Positions 119-15,846 of a DNA stretch of 64,000 nucleotides are shown piece after piece. The position numbers and the translations under genes were made by a program. The notes below the pieces were generated by a model. The model searched no databases. It had not been told where the DNA came from and saw only the letters and a program-made list of their open reading frames with translations. The stretch spans positions 1-64,000 of the forward strand of contig NZ_CP077683.1 in assembly GCF_019063845.1 (NCBI RefSeq), read 5' to 3'. How positions within the stretch are numbered: the first letter of the stretch is position 1; each line of letters begins with the position of its first letter. The stretch comes from Geomonas subterranea. Its GTDB lineage: Bacteria; Desulfobacterota; Desulfuromonadia; Geobacterales; Geobacteraceae.

Positions 119-257
119 GTAGGTGTGACGGCTCTCTTTAAAACCGGTTGTAGCAGCACGCTGCATCCCGCACCCCTGCACTCCCCCAAGCGCAGGAAGG
201 ACGGGTGAAGGAACTGCAATGCAGGTTCATAATCCAAATGTCAAAAAGGAACCACTC

Positions 258-3200
258 ATGAAGAGAACGAAAAAGACAAGTTCGCTTCTGACGGTCACAG
301 CGGCAGTCGCCGGGGTTGCCATGGGCGCAAGCATCGCCATGGCAGCGCACCCGCCGATCCAGCTGTACACCTACGAAGAAGTGGCCCAACAGATGGGCTT
401 CCCGAAAGCCCCGGTCATGGTCGACAGGGTAACCAAGCAGGGGATGCCGTACTCCCCGAAGCAGACCTGCTTCGGCGACCAGGGCACCACCGCCTGCCAC
501 GGTAACGCCGCCGCCGGCAACTCGAAGCTCGCGAAGAGCTACGACGACCTCTCCAAGCACGCCTACCACGCAGCCCTCGGTTTCAACGAGTGGATGGACA
601 ACTCCAAGGGGGGGCTTTTCGTCAGTACCGGCGATGCCGACCTCCTGCCCAAGGGCACCCAGACCGGCCTCGCCGCCAACAAGCCGTGGGTACAGTCACA
701 CGGCCACAACGGCAAGTGGTGACCGCCTTCTCTCCGCCAGGTGGCGGATTATCAGCTGAACGGTCAGGGCCAGTACATCAACTACATGCAGCCGGGCGTC
801 GACGGCTTCCAGAACTTCCTTAAAGGGGGCAATGACGCCAACGGCAACCCGTATCCGAAAGTCGAGATGTCCCTTTGGGACCAGGCGACCATGTGCGGTA
901 CCTGCCACGTGGGTGGCGTCTTCTACGAAGAGGACAGGATGGGCACCCGCCTGCCGGCCAGGACCCTCGCCGACTGGGGCCCGGCCTTCACGGGCGCGGC
1001 ACCGAACCTCAACCCGATCACCGCGACCGTGTGGGAGAACTACTCCACCACCGGTAAGGACAAGTCCTTCGTCGCCATGTCCCCCTGGGTCTACCCGGTC
1101 TACATGGGGATGGGCGGCGCTCCCGACCCGAACCTTCCGGACGGCGGCCCGATGATCGTCCCCTACGGTTGGGCGCCCAAAGACATGACCATGGCCAACA
1201 ACAACGGCGGGGCTCCCTACACCGTCAAGGCCGGCCAGCTCATGATGCCCAACGTCAAGGAGATGGACTGCCTCTTCTGCCACCTCAAAGGCTATGACAA
1301 CGTGATGACCTCCGTCATGGTCCAGGCCGGTTCCCTTTCCGCCGCCCCGACCACTGGCGCCGGCCTCTTCGACATGTTCTCCCTGAGCCCGACCTACATG
1401 GGTTACGATCCGAGAAACGGCAAGAGCGCCTTCTACCGTATCGGCGCTGGAAATCTTCCCCCGGCATTCGCGAGCTACTCCTCGCACGAGGTCGTCTTCC
1501 TGACCGCTGCCGTGACGGAGAACATCAAGGGCAAGCCGGACGAGAACAACTGCCACCAGTGCCACGCTTCCAAGACGCTCAAGAACTTCCCCGAGATGTT
1601 CGGCGTCACCGGCACCAGCACCGGCTTCCTCTCCTCCGCCCCGATGGTGTACGACCCGGCCAACGGCGTGGGCCCCCTGGGCAAGAAGATGGTCAACTAC
1701 GACATCAACTCCCCGCTCATGCAGTCCGGCGCCTCCCCGGTCCTCACCGGGAACAACGTCCAGAATTTCATGATGGCCGGCCTCAACTATCCGCAGGCCA
1801 GCGGTCCCTCCGGGTACAACACCCTGGATGCGTCCAAGGGCGAAATCGGCGGCGGCAACCCGGCCATGACCGGTCCGCTGTTCTACTCCACCATGGACGG
1901 CAAGCCTGTCGACCAGAACACCCTGAAGAAGTCCACCATGCCGTTCCCCCGCGCCGAGTGGTTCAAGCGCGGTGACGCATGGCAGGCCGGCCAGGACGTT
2001 CACGGCAGCTTCGGCTGCGCCGGCTGCCACTTCACCGGCAACTCCACCGACAAGAACCAGTGCGACCCGGCCCGCGGCTTCGATGCGGCCTCCACCATCC
2101 AGGACGGCCTGCCGGCCATCAAGGAGCGTCAGCCGGTACTTGAGCAAGGTGAGACGCTGGACGCGGCCATCAAGAAGCACGACACCCGTAACACCATGAA
2201 GCGTTGCGAGTTCTGCCACGTCACCGGCACCGACTACAACGGCAACCCGATCGAGACCTACGGCGCGCCCAACCCGAACCTGGCCCACGCCAACGCGGGG
2301 CTTCTGGCCAACCTGACCCAGATCGTCGACAAAGTCGGCCTGCACGGCGACTTCGGCGGCAAAGGGGTACCCAGGGAGTCCAACTTCACCACCCAGGAAA
2401 AAGGCGCCGTAGACGGCGTTCAAAAGCCGGGCGGCACCATTTTGGGCCGCGGCAACCACCTCGACGTCATGGACTGCACCGTCTGCCACGTCGACAAGGT
2501 GAGCATGGCGGTACGCTCGCTCGACGCCACCTCCGGCATGCGCTTCCCCGCCATCGTCGGCACCGACCCGATGAAGGGCATGCTCGGCCTCTTCGAAGAC
2601 CCGACCGGCATGGGCGCTGCGGCAACCGGCATGGGCGGCGAATTGAAGCACTGGACACCGGTCGTCATGTGGCAGCCTTACGGCAACATGGAGGGAACGC
2701 TTAGCTGGGCCAACAAACCGGCCGACCAGCGCTTCCAGTTCCGCCGCAAGCTGTACCTGACCAACCCCATCAGCGCGATCCTCTTCAACAACGAGGGGAG
2801 CACCGTGGACGCCAACGGCGACGGCGTCACCGGCGGCATGCTGATCGGCGACGACGAGGCCACCGGCCTCCCCACCGCCAGCACCAAGCCGTCCTTGAAG
2901 GGATACCGCGACGTCTTCACCGGCGACGTTCCCAACAAGAACAACACCTCCGGCTTCGAACTGCCGATCTTCGACCCGTGGGCCATGCGCGAACTGAAGT
3001 CCGGCTTCAACTTCGTGCCGGCTCCGCTCTCCGTCATCGGCGCAGGCTTTGGCGGCTTCGGCACTCCGGCCGGCAAGACCGACCCGACCAACGGCGCGTT
3101 CGCAAGCCTCTACGGCCCGAACGGCATGTTCTCCAACGACAACTGGAAGTACGCTTCCGTATGGAGCGGCGCCGTCGTATTCACCGAGCCGGACCAGATC

Positions 3201-4430
3201 CGCGGCTACAAGCAGTACCGCACCGCCATCAAGGATGCCACCGACGGCAAATCCTGGATGAACACCTCCCTCACCATGATCGGCGCACCGTTCATGGTCA
3301 CCCACGGCGTGAAACCGACCGACAGCTACGTCAAGGGTAAATCCTGCGCCGACTGCCACGCGGCGGGCAAAGGGTTCTTCAAAGGTAGCTTCGACATGGT
3401 CGGCCCGGCCATCCCGTCGACCAAGAGCTACGACCCGAGCACCTACCCGATGACCGACGCCAACGGCAACCTCGTTGTCGACACGGCAACGGGCGAGCCG
3501 GTGCGCGGCCCCGCCCAGGGGTGGACCATCCCCGGCGACCAGGGCAACATGATGATGCGTCCGCTTGAACCGATCCGCATCAAGGCCTACAAAGGCGACC
3601 TGCGCGGCTACTTCGAGAGCTACAACAAGCTCGGCCAGCCGCGTGAAGTCAACTTCGTCCACGACGTGAACGTGGGCGGCGTCGACTACAGCTATGCATC
3701 CACCATCGACCGCTCCGAAATCGCCTACCCGGCGGAAGACGGCGCGATCTACTACAAAGTTGGCCAGGTCAACGCTGACGGCTCCGTCAACGGTGGCGCC
3801 CAGCCGCTGACCGGCGCAGCATACGCAACCTACCTCGAGACAGAGATATCCCCCGTCCTTGCCGATTACGGCATCGGGATCGATCCGGTCGCCACCATCA
3901 ACCCGATCGCCGACGCAAGCGCAACCGACCTCGGCGTGCAGGTGAAGCAGAACGCCGACGTGGCTCTCTCCGCCGCTCCGGCACAGATGAACGCCGGCAG
4001 CGAAGTGGGGAGCGCGACCTACGCCTGGACCACCAGCGACGGCACCGCCGTCACCAACGCAGGCTCCAGGACCGGTGCGACCGTCAAGTTCACCACCCTG
4101 GGGACCAAGACCATCACCCTCAAGGTAACCGACGAAGAGGGCAAGGTCAGCCAGACCAGCACCAACGTCGACGTCATCCTGGCGCCGGTCACCATCGGCT
4201 GGAATGGCACCACCGACGTCGCCACCTTCACGACCTTCCCGGCAGGCACCGCCTCCGTGAAGATCGCCTGGGGCGACGGTTTCAGCACCACCAAGAGCGG
4301 CACCGCCCTTACCGACCCGCTCACCGTGAGACACCTGTACTCGACCGGGACCGCCAAGACCATCAAGTTCTACTGCTACAACGGAACTGGCGCCCAGATC
4401 GGCTACCAGCAGGCAACCATCCTGCCGTAA
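258..4430 (+). CDS. Secreted octahaem c-type cytochrome with in-frame UGA (selenocysteine 155), PKD-like C-terminus
   Basis: One gene, read through UGA 720-722, giving 1390 aa. The ATG at 258 is preferred to the in-frame ATG at 219: it follows an AAAGGA-like site and opens a signal peptide with an AMA cleavage site near residue 29. Haem 1 is an expanded C-x8-C-H (C71, C80, H81). Seven canonical CxxCH motifs follow (CGTCH, CLFCH, CHQCH, CAGCH, CEFCH, CTVCH, CADCH). The last ~170 residues form two PKD/Ig-like domains. Reading stays open after the UGA with W-U-P-P-S-x-R-Q, matched by the paralogue at 10327 and by W-S-P in the paralogue at 4608. Likely exported to the periplasm or cell surface for electron transfer; substrate unknown. 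Standard annotation would split it at 722/741. The alternative is a nonsense-broken gene, which the second UGA-bearing copy argues against. Confidence 0.85.
720..748 (+). promoter_or_regulatory. UGA plus bacterial SECIS-like hairpin (cytochrome 1)
   Basis: UGA is at 720-722. A perfect 6-bp stem TCCGCC (733-738) / GGCGGA (743-748) closes the tetraloop AGGU (739-742). Sixteen nucleotides separate the UGA from the loop, and the loop has G at position 2, within the bacterial SECIS rules as I recall them. AGGU is also the start of the E. coli fdhF loop, with its GU at nearly the same distance from UGA. The stem covaries with the copy at 10790-10805. Confidence 0.8.
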
Positions 4431-10326: not shown

Positions 10327-13300
10327 ATGCAACACTCGAGGAGGAAGGTCGTCAAGGCGGCCGCCGTCTCTTCCGCGGTCCTGTTAGGGCTCGCGGCGGG
10401 ATCGGCGCTGGGCGCCACCACCGACCACACCAACATCATCCTTAAGGACTGGCAGGGTACCGAGATTGCCCGTCCGGCTGACGGCGTCGCGGCACCTGCC
10501 TACAGCGTGAAGCAGACCTGCTTCGGCACCAACAACGGTGTCGCCTGCCACGGCAACAGCGCCGTCGGCAACGCGAAGTTCAGCTACGACGATATCGAAA
10601 GGCACAGCTACCACACCCAGCTGGGCGCCAACGAGTTCAGGGGCTTCAACCCTGCGAACCCCGACGCCTACAACCCCTACACCACCGACCCCACCAAGGT
10701 CGGCGACAAGTGGCGTCCGGGCGCAGGCCCCCAGGGTAAGAACTGGGTGCAGAGCCCCGGCCACTTCGGGAGCTGGTGACCGCCTTCCGCTCGCCAGTTG
10801 GCGAGAGCATACAAGGATGGTGCAGGTGCAAGCTACAACGGTTCCAGCAGCACGCCGGGCTTCGACGCGGCTAAGGACACGGTCAACTCCTTCAAGACCG
10901 TTCCCTTCGGCAGCGTGCTGATCGATGCCACCAACCCCGGGGCCGGCTACCAGGTCAACCCCACCGGCAAGTTCTACGAGATCTTCCCCTTCGGCGCCGA
11001 CACCGGTGCCGGCCAGCTCGCCTACAAGCAGAAGGTCGACAACTCCAACGCGGGCGTCATGCGCGACTGCGCCGAGTGCCACGTCGGCGGCGGCATGAAC
11101 GAGTACGCCTACGCCAACATGCCGACCGCAGCCTACGACCCGGCCGCACGCACCTCGCTGCGCACCTTCGATTTCGGCAGCGTCGTCACCGCCTGGAACT
11201 ACTTCATCGACATCTTCAACCCGGACGTGACCAAGCGTGGCGATGTCGTCAAACAGGACTATGCCCAGACCGGCGTCCTGGAGATGGACTGCCTCATGTG
11301 CCACCAGACCGGCTACGACTGGGCCGCACGCAAGGAAGCCGTACGCAAGGGTGAGTTCGACGCCTCCCGCGCCGTCGGCGCCAAGCTGGTCAACGAAGTC
11401 GCCAGCGGCACCCAGGTCTTCTACAACTACACCGCCGTCAAGACCAACGCCTCCGGGAAACTCTACGTCGACCTGAGCGCCACGCTGAACAGCAAGCCCC
11501 AGTCGACCAACTGCTCCTCCTGCCACCAGTCGCAGTACAACGTCGACTGGAAAAAGCGCGGCGAGCAGTGGCTGGAAGGTCAGGAAGTCCACTACAGCCT
11601 GGGGTGCATGGCCTGCCACCAGCGCAAGGACGTGACCAACCCGCAGGTCGGCACCTCCGGCCTCGTTTCCGAAGCGAAACTCGGTCTGTGCGATCCCGCC
11701 AAGGGGGGCGCTTCCGACTTCGACGCCATGTGGAACAAGCTTGATACCGTCAACTTCAAGCAATGCTCCGACTGCCACGAGCCGACCGGTACCACCACCT
11801 GGCCGACCTACGGCGCTCCCAACTCCGAGAACGCCCACACCGCCAAGGGGCTCAACGCCAAGATCGCCTTCGACAAGAACGGCGCTCCGGCGAGCCACAT
11901 GGACATCATGGACTGCACCGCCTGCCACATCAGCAAGAACTTCGATGGCGGCGCCATGGTTGACGGCACCGGTGCCGACGCCGAAGGGCGCGTGGCGCTG
12001 CACGACGAGCCGCAGGTCGCCCGCGACATGAACGGCACAGCCGGCAACGCGCTGTACTGGAACAACGGCAAGCTCTACGGCGCCAACCTGCTGACCTCCT
12101 CCTTCCTGCGCGACATGAACGGCATGGATGCAGCCAACTTCGGCCTCGACGGCAACAACGACGGCCGCAACGCCGGCATGGACACCCTGCTGCAGACCCA
12201 CATCAACGACCTGAACAACGCCGTGGGCGCGAAGGCCGTGACCATGGAGAAGAACGCGGACGGCAGCTGGGTGAACGAGGCGGAAATGACCGCGCTCTAC
12301 GCCAGGATCAACGGCGACAGCACCGGTACCGCTTCCACCGGCACCGGCACCTATCCCGGCGGTCTGAAACAGCTTCTGGGCATCAGCGACGCCACCAACG
12401 ACTACAAGCTGATCCCGAAGATGTCCTTCCTCATGGTTCCGTTCAAGGCGAGCCACAACATCGCCCGTACCGCCACCATGGCGTGGGGTAAAGGGGGCTG
12501 CTCCGACTGCCACGGCGCCAACAAAGGGTTCTACAACGGCGCCTACCCGATCCTGGGCAACATGAGCGGCGTGGACACCAACGGCAAGAACAAGTTCCGC
12601 TTCTACTCCAACCAGGTCACCACCTTCACCAAGGTCAACGGTCTCGCCGACATCACCGACTCCCACCCGAGCGTCGTGACCAAGAAGGGCGACAGGACCG
12701 TTCCGGTCACCCTGCTGACCAAGTTCGACGGCCCGTACGTACCGAACGCCTCGGCCGTCGACAACCAGACCCTGCGCAACATCGACAGGAGCGAGGTGAT
12801 CTACGAGGGGACCTTCCAGACCCGCGACACCGCCTGGTACACCACCATCGCCGGTTCCGCTCCGGCTGCTTCCTGTTCCGGCCCGACCAGCCCGTTCTAC
12901 TGCGCGACCCCGACCAACATCGTCGCCCAGGACGCCGTGAAGTCCAAGGCGACCTCCACCAAGGGGTGGCTCCTGAAGGTCGAGGTACGTCCGGCCGGCG
13001 ACACCAACCCCAACAACATCACCTTCCGCACCGCGCAGCTTGGCAAGGACAACGCCACCGCCATGGCTGAAGTCCTGGCTGCCCTGCCGGCAAGCTTCAC
13101 CACCAACAGTGACTTCACCGTCACCGAGGCCGGCGGCGCACTCACCATCACCGCCGCCGCCAACAAGGAGATCCGCATCTCCCCGCAGACCGACTCAGGC
13201 CCGCTGGGGCTGAAAGGCAAGGTCTACAAGGCGGACCCGATCGTTCGCGGCAGCAACAGCTACGCCGGTCGTGACGCATACGTCACCTACCTGAACGGCC

Positions 13301-13881
13301 TGACCAGCCCGGCTGCCTTCGGTATCGGCATCGCCCCGGTCGCCTCCATCAACCCGATCGCCGACGCCAGCGCCATCGACCTCGGCGTGCAGGTGAAGCA
13401 GAACGCCGATGTCGCGCTGACCGCTCCGGCGGCGCAGACCAACGCCGGCGTCGAGGTTGGCAACGTGACCTACGCCTGGACCACCAGCGACGGCACCGTC
13501 GTCACCAACCCCGCCTCCAGGACCACCGCGACCGTGAAGTTCGCGACCCTGGGGACCAAGACCATCACCCTCAAGGTCACCGACGAAGAGGGCAAGGTCA
13601 GCCAGACCAGCACCAACGTCGACGTCATCGTGGCGCCGATCACCATCGGCTGGGATGGCGTCAATGACGTCGCCACCTTCACGAACCTCCCGGTGGGCAC
13701 CGCCTCCGTGAAGATCGCCTGGGGCGACGGTTTCAGCACCACCAAGAGCGGTACCGCCGTTGTCGACCCGCTCACCGTGAGACACCTGTACTCGACCGGC
13801 ACCGCCAAGACCATCAGGTTCTACTGCTACAACGGAACCGGCGCGCAGATCGGCTACCAGCAGGCCACCATCACCCCCTAA
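10327..13881 (+). CDS. Secreted octahaem c-type cytochrome with in-frame UGA (selenocysteine 151), PKD-like C-terminus
   Basis: One gene of 1184 aa read through UGA 10777-10779. ATG 10327 follows a strong CAAGGAGG site. The N-terminus is a signal peptide with the cleavage region SALGA near residue 30; the R-R pair (residues 5-6) lacks a full Tat motif. Haem 1 is C-x8-C-H (C65, C74, H75). Seven CxxCH motifs follow: CAECH, CLMCH, CSSCH, CMACH, CSDCH, CTACH, CSDCH. The in-frame continuation W-U-P-P-S-A-R-Q-L-A matches cytochrome 1 residue for residue around the UGA. The last ~170 residues are nearly identical to those of cytochrome 1, implying recent duplication or gene conversion. Likely exported electron-transfer protein. 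Conventional calling would give a 150-aa and a 1027-aa ORF. Confidence 0.85.
10777..10805 (+). promoter_or_regulatory. UGA plus bacterial SECIS-like hairpin (cytochrome 3)
   Basis: UGA is at 10777-10779. The 6-bp stem CTCGCC (10790-10795) / GGCGAG (10800-10805) closes the loop AGUU (10796-10799), 16 nt after the UGA, identical spacing to cytochrome 1. Relative to that copy, the bottom pair changes T-A to C-G and the second pair C-G to T-A, two compensatory changes that preserve the stem. Confidence 0.8.
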
Positions 13882-13978: not shown

Positions 13979-14380
13979 ATGGAAAACATCGCACTGCTGT
14001 TTCAGTCACTGGACGACCAGACCAGGCTGCGCCTTTTGGCGCTCTTGCTGCACGCAGGTGAACTGTGCGTCTGCGATCTGGTGGCGGCACTCAGGCTCCC
14101 CCAGTCCACCGTCTCGCGCCAGCTCGCCATCCTGAAAGGGGCGGGATGGCTCAACGGGAGAAGGGTGGGGGCCTGGAACCACTACTCGATCAACGCCTCC
14201 CTCGGGCCGGTGCAGCAGTTCCTGCTCCCTGTGCTGCGCAACTTCCTCCTGGTCACGGAAACGGCGCGGGAGGACCAGTTGCGGCTTCGGCAACGGAAGG
14301 GGGACGCGTGCTGCGGCGAGGTAGTGGCATCCAAAAAAACGGATAATACGGGGTGTGTCCCCGGGGAGGGTGAGGCATGA
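13979..14380 (+). CDS. ArsR/SmtB-family repressor
   Basis: 133 aa. Winged-helix fold with the classical metalloid-binding motif ELCVCDL (about residues 24-30) and the recognition helix QSTVSRQLAIL. The Cys tail (ACCGE near residue 109) could add metal ligands. The binding motif is that of As(III)-type ArsR proteins, but the genes it precedes are hgcAB. An ArsR-like gene next to hgcAB has been noted in other methylators, as I recall. It overlaps hgcA by the ATGA junction at 14377-14380, so the two are translationally coupled. An operator-like inverted repeat sits in its promoter, consistent with autorepression relieved by thiophilic metals or metalloids; the effector is inference. Confidence 0.93.
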   Translation: MENIALLFQSLDDQTRLRLLALLLHAGELCVCDLVAALRLPQSTVSRQLAILKGAGWLNGRRVGAWNHYSINASLGPVQQFLLPVLRNFLLVTETAREDQLRLRQRKGDACCGEVVASKKTDNTGCVPGEGEA

Positions 14381-15540
14381 GCGACGGGATCAAGATACGC
14401 CGGTTCAAGAAGATCGAGGTGAAGCCGCCGGCTCCCTCATCCTGTTCGGCCGACGACGGCGTCAATCCCGACGCCCCCCCCTGCTGAGGTCCCCCCACCT
14501 CCGCCGGCGGCGGAGAGATCACCGAAAAAGTTCCCGGTTTCCTGGACTGGATTGACACCGCACGCGGCCGCGTCCCCCGGATCAGCGGCAGCCTGACCCT
14601 CGGCGACCACGTGGGCGCCTGTCTCGCGCGCTGGGGGATCAACAGGATGACCTTCATGGTCCCTCCAGGCCTCTACGCCATCGGCGCGCCCGATTCGGAG
14701 GCGCCGGTCGTGGTGACGGCCAACTACAAGATGAGCTTCGACATCGTGCGCCGGGCGCTCTGCGGCAGGAACGTGTGGCTCCTGGTTCTTGAGACCTACG
14801 GCATCAACGTCTGGTGCGCGGCGGGGAAGGGGACCTTCGGCACCGGCGAACTGGTGCGCCGCATCGAGAAGAGTGGCCTTGCCGGGGTGGTGAGCCACCG
14901 GCGCCTCATCCTTCCCATCCTGGGCGCGGCCGGCGTCTCCGCGCACCGGGTGAAACAAAGAAGCGGCTTCGAGGTCGCCTACGCCACCATGCGCGCGGCC
15001 GATCTCCCCGCCTACCTGGACCAGGGGGGTACCGCCACCGCCGCCATGCGGGAGCTCCGCTTCAACTGGTACGACCGTCTCGTGCTGATCCCGGTGGAAC
15101 TGGTCCTGGCGGGAAGGCCTGTGCTTCCGGCGGCCGCGCTTCTCTACCTCGTCGCCCGGTTCTTCTGGGGCGCCGGCGCCGCGGCCGTCGCGGCGCCCGC
15201 CTTCCTCGGCGCGGTCTTCACCGGCGTAGCCGTGGGGCCGCTGCTGTTGCCGCTTCTTCCCGGCAGGAGCTTCGCCGTCAAGGGGGCCTGCGCGGGTGCC
15301 ATCTACTGCGCGCTTTTATACCTCTTCGCAGGAGCGGCGAGATGGGGCGGGGGGGCGACGCTGGCCGCCTTTCTGGCGTTTCCCGCCGTTTCCTCCTTCT
15401 ACACGCTCAACTTCACCGGCTGCACCACGTTCACCTCCAAGTCGGGGGTCAAAAAGGAGATGCGCCTGGGACTCCCGGTCATGGCGGGTGCCCTGGGCGC
15501 CGCGCTCATCATCGTCACGGCCGGCCGGTTCTTGGGCTAG
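14377..15540 (+). CDS. hgcA: Mercury-methylating corrinoid protein HgcA, with in-frame UGA (selenocysteine 37)
   Basis: 387 aa read through UGA 14485-14487. ATG 14377 overlaps the arsR stop and follows GGGAGGGTGAGG. Residues 1-36 end in D-A-P-P-C; UGA follows, then the frame stays open (G-P-P-T-S-A-G-G-G) into VPGFLDWID, normal HgcA N-terminal sequence upstream of the first alternative start (GTG 14611). The corrinoid domain carries the signature NVWCAAGKG, with the cobalt-liganding Cys at residue 147. The C-terminal half has about five membrane helices. The protein transfers a methyl group from a corrinoid to Hg(II) together with HgcB. A Cys-Sec pair would be an unusually strong Hg ligand. 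The selenocysteine reading is an inference from frame conservation and hairpin; a broken gene or downstream GTG start are the alternatives. Confidence 0.85.
14485..14515 (+). promoter_or_regulatory. UGA plus candidate SECIS hairpin in hgcA
   Basis: UGA 14485-14487 is followed by a perfect 7-bp stem CTCCGCC (14499-14505) / GGCGGAG (14509-14515) with loop GGC. Eighteen nucleotides separate UGA and loop and the first loop base is G, both inside the usual bacterial SECIS limits. The coding sequence there also encodes a Gly-rich linker, which tends to form GC hairpins by chance, so this alone is weaker evidence than the two cytochrome elements. Confidence 0.65.
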
Positions 15541-15552
15541 GGGGAGGAAGGG

Positions 15553-15846
15553 ATGAAAGGTTTCAGGTATCTGGAAGGAGTCGCCACCCTCGAACTCGAC
15601 GCAGGGCGCTGCATCGGCTGCGGCAGGTGCGTCGAGGTCTGTCCGCACCATGTCTTGCGCATGGAGGGGAAACGGGCGGTCCTCGCGGATCGTGACGCCT
15701 GCATGGAGTGCGGTGCCTGCGCGCTTAACTGCCCCGCCGCCGCGCTCAAGGTGGACGCAGGGGTCGGGTGCGCCAGCGGCATGATCCACGAGTGGCTCAG
15801 GGAGAAGAAGCTTCCCGGCCTGAGCGGCGGGGGATGTTGCGGGTAG
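15553..15846 (+). CDS. hgcB: HgcB, 4Fe-4S ferredoxin partner of HgcA
   Basis: 97 aa, 12 nt after hgcA, with a GGGAGGAAGGG ribosome site. Two [4Fe-4S] motifs (CIGCGRCVEVCP near residues 20-31 and CMECGACALNCP near 50-61), an additional Cys (VGCASG), and the diagnostic C-terminal vicinal pair GGGCCG. The family reduces the HgcA corrinoid to Co(I), and its terminal Cys pair is thought to pass Hg(II) to the methylation site. Complete and in the usual order. Confidence 0.96.
   Translation: MKGFRYLEGVATLELDAGRCIGCGRCVEVCPHHVLRMEGKRAVLADRDACMECGACALNCPAAALKVDAGVGCASGMIHEWLREKKLPGLSGGGCCG

Follow-up and report, generated by a model that had tools for sequence, protein, structure and literature searches.

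The closest described relatives of the protein analyzed here are the selenocysteine (Sec) forms of HgcA. A 2026 review lists HgcA (NF040863, motif CU) among predicted selenoproteins in its Table 1, citing Haft and Gwadz (2023) for the entry (its references 61 and 63), and lists HgcB with the motif GVGU as another (PMC13188914, sections consulted). Some hgcA and hgcB homologs are also described as possible selenoproteins in the consulted sections of PMC11588087. Selenium-containing HgcA is already in print, and the locus reported below adds one more case: it has the same protein family and the same CU motif, with nothing different in kind from the HgcA selenoproteins of NF040863 (PMC13188914, same sections). 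Apparently additional to those sections are the figures on how often Sec and Cys occur at the column, the hairpin statistics, the repeated swaps between the two residues, and the extra Cys-Cys pair of the Cys forms. We found no test of the selenium dependence of HgcA in the portions of the literature covered by our search.

The HgcA of P. mercurii ND132 is like the present one in its corrinoid domain, conserved Cys, membrane domain, and partner HgcB with a Cys-Cys end; it differs in that the consulted sections of PMC11588087 mention Cys93 and a band of 37 kDa but no Sec. The same sections propose that the Cys-Cys tail of HgcB handles Hg, and describe recombinant P. mercurii HgcAB as functional with an N-terminal tag. 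The gamma subunit of CFeSP (2h9a and relatives) shares a corrinoid-binding domain with HgcA residues 93–216, but this match leaves the membrane domain and the Cys-Sec arm of HgcA uncovered. Main-text searches of PMC2398784 and PMC5029168 for CO dehydrogenase and acetyl-CoA synthase had no hits.

Results

The hgcA locus

The window is a 64,000-nt stretch of the Geomonas subterranea genome, and all features of the locus lie on its forward strand. A gene for an arsR-type metalloregulator (13979..14380; NF033788 HTH_metalloreg, 77.9 bits, cut-off 55) ends in a stop codon that overlaps the ATG of hgcA at 14377 (ATGA). This ATG is preceded by a Shine-Dalgarno-like GGGGAGG read in the sequence (14363..14369), and a GGAG-like run stands before the equivalent start in the five same-genus relatives printed (ATG, or GTG in L002). 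The hgcA gene (14377..15540) has 387 codons, one of them UGA, followed by the stop codon TAG (15538–15540). Next comes hgcB (15553..15846; NF040864, 127 bits, cut-off 99), a ferredoxin gene whose product ends in Cys-Cys-Gly.

The product of the gene matches NF040863 over residues 66–385 (430.3 bits, cut-off 275). Cys147 of the NVWCAAG motif (14815..14817) is invariant in our alignment A1, as is the whole region from N144 to K151; we take Cys147 to be the equivalent of Cys93 of P. mercurii HgcA. The structure model places long helices between residues 231 and 386. By score, motif, membrane helices, and adjoining hgcB, the gene is identified as hgcA, and Hg methylation is predicted for the organism. 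Since NF040863 begins at residue 66, the model is blind to the N-terminal arm (residues 1–50; 14377..14526, bounded by structure-model pLDDT), which contains the UGA.

A conserved UGA at the position of a Cys-Cys pair

An earlier note on this DNA had proposed that hgcA is read through a UGA to give a Cys-Sec pair. We confirmed that the UGA (14485..14487) is in frame with hgcA and directly 3′ of a Cys codon, and that the frame is open from 14377 to 15540. The Cys codon is TGC (Cys36; 14482..14484), nearly invariant in A1, and the UGA would encode Sec37, an assignment based on conservation, a hairpin, and Cys-Cys homologs; the context of the CU pair is PPCUGP. That the frame stays open through a TGA is weak proof by itself, because several dozen frames in this G+C-rich window also cross one (at least 30 codons before and at least 120 after). 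What marks this UGA as real is its conservation in the family, purifying selection on both sides, and a hairpin exceeding synonymous shuffles.

We surveyed the position in three partly overlapping draws of genomes. In the family draw, 40 of the 48 genomes searched had an hgcA match at E ≤ 1e-20, and with one locus taken per genome the C-UGA arm was found in 40/40 loci. A sequencing error at UGA 14485 was rejected on this ground. The phylum draw comprised 395 genomes, 126 with an hgcA match, from which we read 111 loci in 109 genomes; it omits 17 genomes with fragments or remote matches only. These 111 loci divided into 43 Sec, 33 Cys-Cys, 15 single or spaced Cys, 19 with none, and one truncated. 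Among 79 hgcA loci of named-species genomes, there were 57 Sec, eight Cys-Cys pairs, three single or spaced Cys, 10 with none, and one truncated.

Variants of the pair occur. Within the 43 phylum Sec loci, the order is UC in four and U stands alone in five. Our first rule returned 14 loci with a UGA lacking an adjacent Cys, nine of which we judged by eye to lie upstream of the true start and removed by hand (L049, L050, L059, L060, L064, L070, L206, L223, and L231). A UGA without adjacent Cys is seen in L140, L160, L174, L202, and L228, and a reversed Sec-Cys pair in L155, L165, L177, and L199, which belong to other clades. One genome (G331) has two hgcA copies (L140 and L203), one with a UGA arm and the other with a Cys arm.

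In the protein database, 7,046 homologs scored above threshold, and we examined the best 120. The suggestion in the earlier note that related HgcA proteins carry Cys-Cys at this place proved correct: Cys-Cys occupies the Sec37 column in 98/98 of those among the best 120 that reach it, and homologs without Cys, which would have spoken against Sec, did not appear among them. The other 22 of the 120 begin downstream of the column, including the prediction for the window's own gene (294 aa). Such late starts would be expected if a UGA had cut the gene calls short, a reading grounded in DNA for the window's own gene. The list favors Cys forms and gives no estimate of prevalence, because proteins cut at a UGA score lower.

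A positioned hairpin follows the UGA

Bacterial SECIS elements are hairpins located soon after the UGA, and their loop begins with G. The hairpin described in the earlier note is present behind UGA 14485 (14499..14515): a 7-bp stem pairs 14499–14505 with 14509–14515 around the loop GGC (14506–14508; CTCCGCC/GGC/GGCGGAG), and the G-first loop starts 18 nt after the UGA. We scored stems closing a loop of 3–6 nt, with a G among the first two bases of that loop, 14–28 nt after the UGA, and compared each gene with 300 synonymous recodings using its own codons. A hairpin was counted when its stem had at least 5 bp and a score of at least 14. The stem of the window's hgcA scored 20, where its shuffles averaged 11.5 (p=0.007).

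The 137 Sec loci reduced to 121 unique genes, of which 110 had a hairpin 17–24 nt after the UGA and 11 failed. The mean stem score was 17.9 versus 9.6 in shuffles, and 101/121 reached p≤0.05; as the sequences are related, these p-values are not independent. The same test behind the pair of Cys-Cys homologs gave 4/40 stems (2/40 at p≤0.05), and control windows 30–150 codons downstream in the Sec genes gave four to 20 stems out of 120–121, with one to eight at p≤0.05. Three Geobacter-type Cys relatives (L010, L047, and L134) had no hairpin (scores of 6, 6, and 8). Hairpins were found across different encoded peptides (SAGGG 60/62, AVSG 13/14, PPEAAG 6/9, QxS 21/25, others 10/11), and stem pairs vary on both strands of the stem; the second pair, for example, may be C-G, G-C, or T-A. 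The two residues encoded by the loop are constrained among Sec forms (0.38 and 0.86 bits) and free among Cys forms (2.60 and 2.31 bits). The predicted hairpin is conserved beyond the requirement of the protein.

Only the positioned test was positive. It replaced a test of plain minimum folding energy, which over the 51 nt after the UGA was not unusual (mean z of −0.37; +0.99 for the window's hgcA). An Rfam search of 14300–14700 at a lax threshold gave nothing relevant to the hairpin.

Both sides of the UGA are under purifying selection

Across six same-genus genes including the window's, dN/dS was 0.29 before the UGA and 0.36 from the UGA to GTG 14611, compared with 0.14 for the core and 0.18 for the membrane region. 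A set of 17 genes gave pN/pS values of 0.49, 0.45, 0.31, and 0.39 for the same four regions. Purifying selection before and after the UGA indicates that both sides are coding, under weaker constraint than the core.

These data bear on whether the UGA might instead be a genuine stop that ends a short, arsR-coupled leader peptide, with functional HgcA starting at GTG 14611 or ATG 14656. The earlier note had expected a gene-calling pipeline to start at GTG 14611; this is indeed the first start after the UGA, but the database prediction starts later still, at residue 94 (P0003, 294 aa). That prediction, the 22 of the best 120 matches that begin past the column, the beginning of NF040863 at residue 66, and a purine-rich stretch upstream of ATG 14656 would all suit a downstream start. 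A leader peptide accounts poorly, however, for the selection on both sides of the UGA, the Cys-Cys pair in all 98 column-reaching homologs among the best 120 of 7,046, and the positioned hairpin, and no Shine-Dalgarno-like sequence was seen upstream of GTG 14611. We regard it as very improbable. Taken on sequence evidence, UGA 14485 is almost certainly a selenocysteine codon, and Sec insertion into HgcA in the cell is predicted.

Selenocysteine machinery and other UGA-containing frames

The genome encodes selA, selB, selD (with a UGA of its own), and selC, the tRNA-Sec with anticodon TCA, so that all four genes on which the earlier note made its proposal depend are present. A selB match was found in 353/395 phylum genomes. 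Comparing the lists by eye, we found seven of the 126 hgcA genomes to have no selB match (G086, G089, G133, G329, G332, G333, and G423); none of the six whose arms were read (all but G133) had a UGA arm, which is a weak test of co-occurrence because selB is so common.

Two other UGA-crossing frames in the window belong to multiheme cytochromes. A multiheme cytochrome frame (10327–13881) has one UGA (10777), following Trp in the context GSWUPPSARQ. It has matches in 16/48 family genomes; the matches that cover the site each contain a single TGA. In 13/13 unique WUPPSARQ sites, 12 of them at p<0.05, a hairpin of 6 bp (loop AGTT) lies 16 nt after the UGA, and four chance WU frames in the same cytochrome loci had no hairpin. 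No NCBIfam model scored above its cut-off for this cytochrome. It is likely to be a further selenoprotein and may stand close to ExtKL, a family mentioned in the consulted sections of PMC13188914. A second, paralogous multiheme cytochrome frame (132–4427) has a UGA at 720 (GKWUPPSLRQ) and the same type of hairpin with an AGGT loop (p=0.003), again with no NCBIfam match above cut-off. Elsewhere, the window contains a traJ-II RNA (RF01760; 62870–62970; 90 bits, above the gathering score).

Sec and Cys appear to have exchanged repeatedly

A FastTree tree of 203 cores required 16 changes between Sec and non-Sec, at least seven of them on starred branches. We then considered a Geobacter-type set of 76 Sec and 98 Cys forms, defined by the motif flanking the pair and cleared of duplicate cores and of those shorter than 230 aa, such as L047. 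This set showed 14 changes with FastTree (at least four on starred branches) and 15 with IQ-TREE quick (at least five on starred branches); stars from these quick methods are less reliable at junctions of long branches, and such junctions occur here. Geobacter-type HgcA appears to have undergone no fewer than four or five well-supported exchanges between Sec and Cys, counted in either direction.

Cys forms tend to carry a second Cys-Cys pair up to 24 residues upstream: it is present in 70/98 Cys versus 1/76 Sec forms of the Geobacter-type set, and outside it in 21/37 Cys-Cys versus 5/43 Sec forms (Fisher tests, 2.9e-24 and 2.8e-5, with kinship ignored). Starred branches offer only four to five independent Sec/Cys pairs, of which one to three agree with the trend and none disagree, numbers with which a sign test is unable to reach 0.05. 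The trade-off between Sec and the second pair is a strong pattern in the sequences that may reflect kinship.

The N-terminal arm is predicted to be flexible

Mean pLDDT in 10-residue blocks was 43–50 over residues 1–40, 77 over residues 41–50, and 96 over residues 51–60, so that residues 1–40 are likely disordered or flexible in the model. Confidence is also low at residues 147–152, beside the corrinoid Cys, and the structure model gives the arm no fixed place relative to this site. What is conserved in the arm is two soft ligands side by side (CU or CC), with the order reversed in some cases and the adjacent Cys missing in others; such ligands on a low-confidence arm would suit a mobile binder of Hg(II). 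Not every HgcA needs the pair, since 19 of the 111 phylum loci have neither Cys nor Sec in the arm window.

We also considered Sec in HgcB as a partner and rejected it for the window, whose HgcB has Cys-Cys. Across the 121 Sec rows, 87 had an HgcB with Cys-Cys near the tail, 19 fell under "other," and 15 had no HgcB by motif. No GVGU tail was noticed in an informal reading of the "other" tails printed.

Discussion

The reading that we consider probable is that the UGA of hgcA is decoded as Sec with SelB, tRNA-Sec, and the hairpin, and that a probably flexible arm with the Cys-Sec pair would take up Hg(II) and deliver it to the enzyme. SelB and tRNA-Sec would read the UGA as Sec, aided by the hairpin just downstream; the Cys-Sec pair on the mobile arm would then capture Hg(II) as a soft-metal ligand; and the arm would hand the metal to the corrinoid site around Cys147, perhaps jointly with the Cys-Cys tail of HgcB. 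Like the earlier note, we infer that the pair is an Hg(II) relay site and that Hg methylation in this organism would be selenium-dependent. Sec as a metal ligand has been considered for other families (PMC13188914, sections consulted).

Sec might be inserted and yet serve a different purpose, with the Cys-Sec pair acting not as an Hg(II) ligand but as a redox center, whose selenenylsulfide would protect the corrinoid or the clusters of HgcB or reduce them. An adjacent Cys and Sec could form such a bond. Many selenoproteins are, moreover, implicated in antioxidant or redox functions (PMC13188914, sections consulted). Metal capture is nevertheless the better fit to the replacement by Cys-Cys, the extra pairs, the shifted and reversed positions, and the low-confidence arm, and HgcB likewise ends in a Cys-Cys proposed to handle Hg (PMC11588087, sections consulted). 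We hold a redox center to be unlikely.

A somewhat smaller chance goes to a variant in which the Sec-bearing arm is a ligand for a soft metal or metalloid that was selected by arsenic or some other native substrate, Hg methylation being a side effect. It draws on the coupling of hgcA to an arsR-type regulator at this locus and on the ArsR control of hgcAB and the arsenic response reported in P. mercurii (PMC10349881, sections consulted).

As for Hg(II) capture by the arm, we infer that a single Cys-Sec pair may replace the two Cys-Cys pairs that Cys forms usually have. A broader and more tentative proposal, which we think possible but would not favor, is that the arm of HgcA is an Hg catcher whose ligand strength is set by swaps between selenium and sulfur, one Cys-Sec being worth two Cys-Cys, with many exchanges between them, and that methylmercury production in the Geobacter family would for this reason be run by selenium.

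HgcAB makes methylmercury, and the route by which Hg(II) reaches the enzyme is an open question. The natural exchanges between Sec and Cys are ready-made pairs for comparison. If the arm does bind Hg(II) through selenium, gene calls and constructs that start past the UGA would lack the arm, and methylation by a whole family of iron reducers would depend on the supply of selenium.
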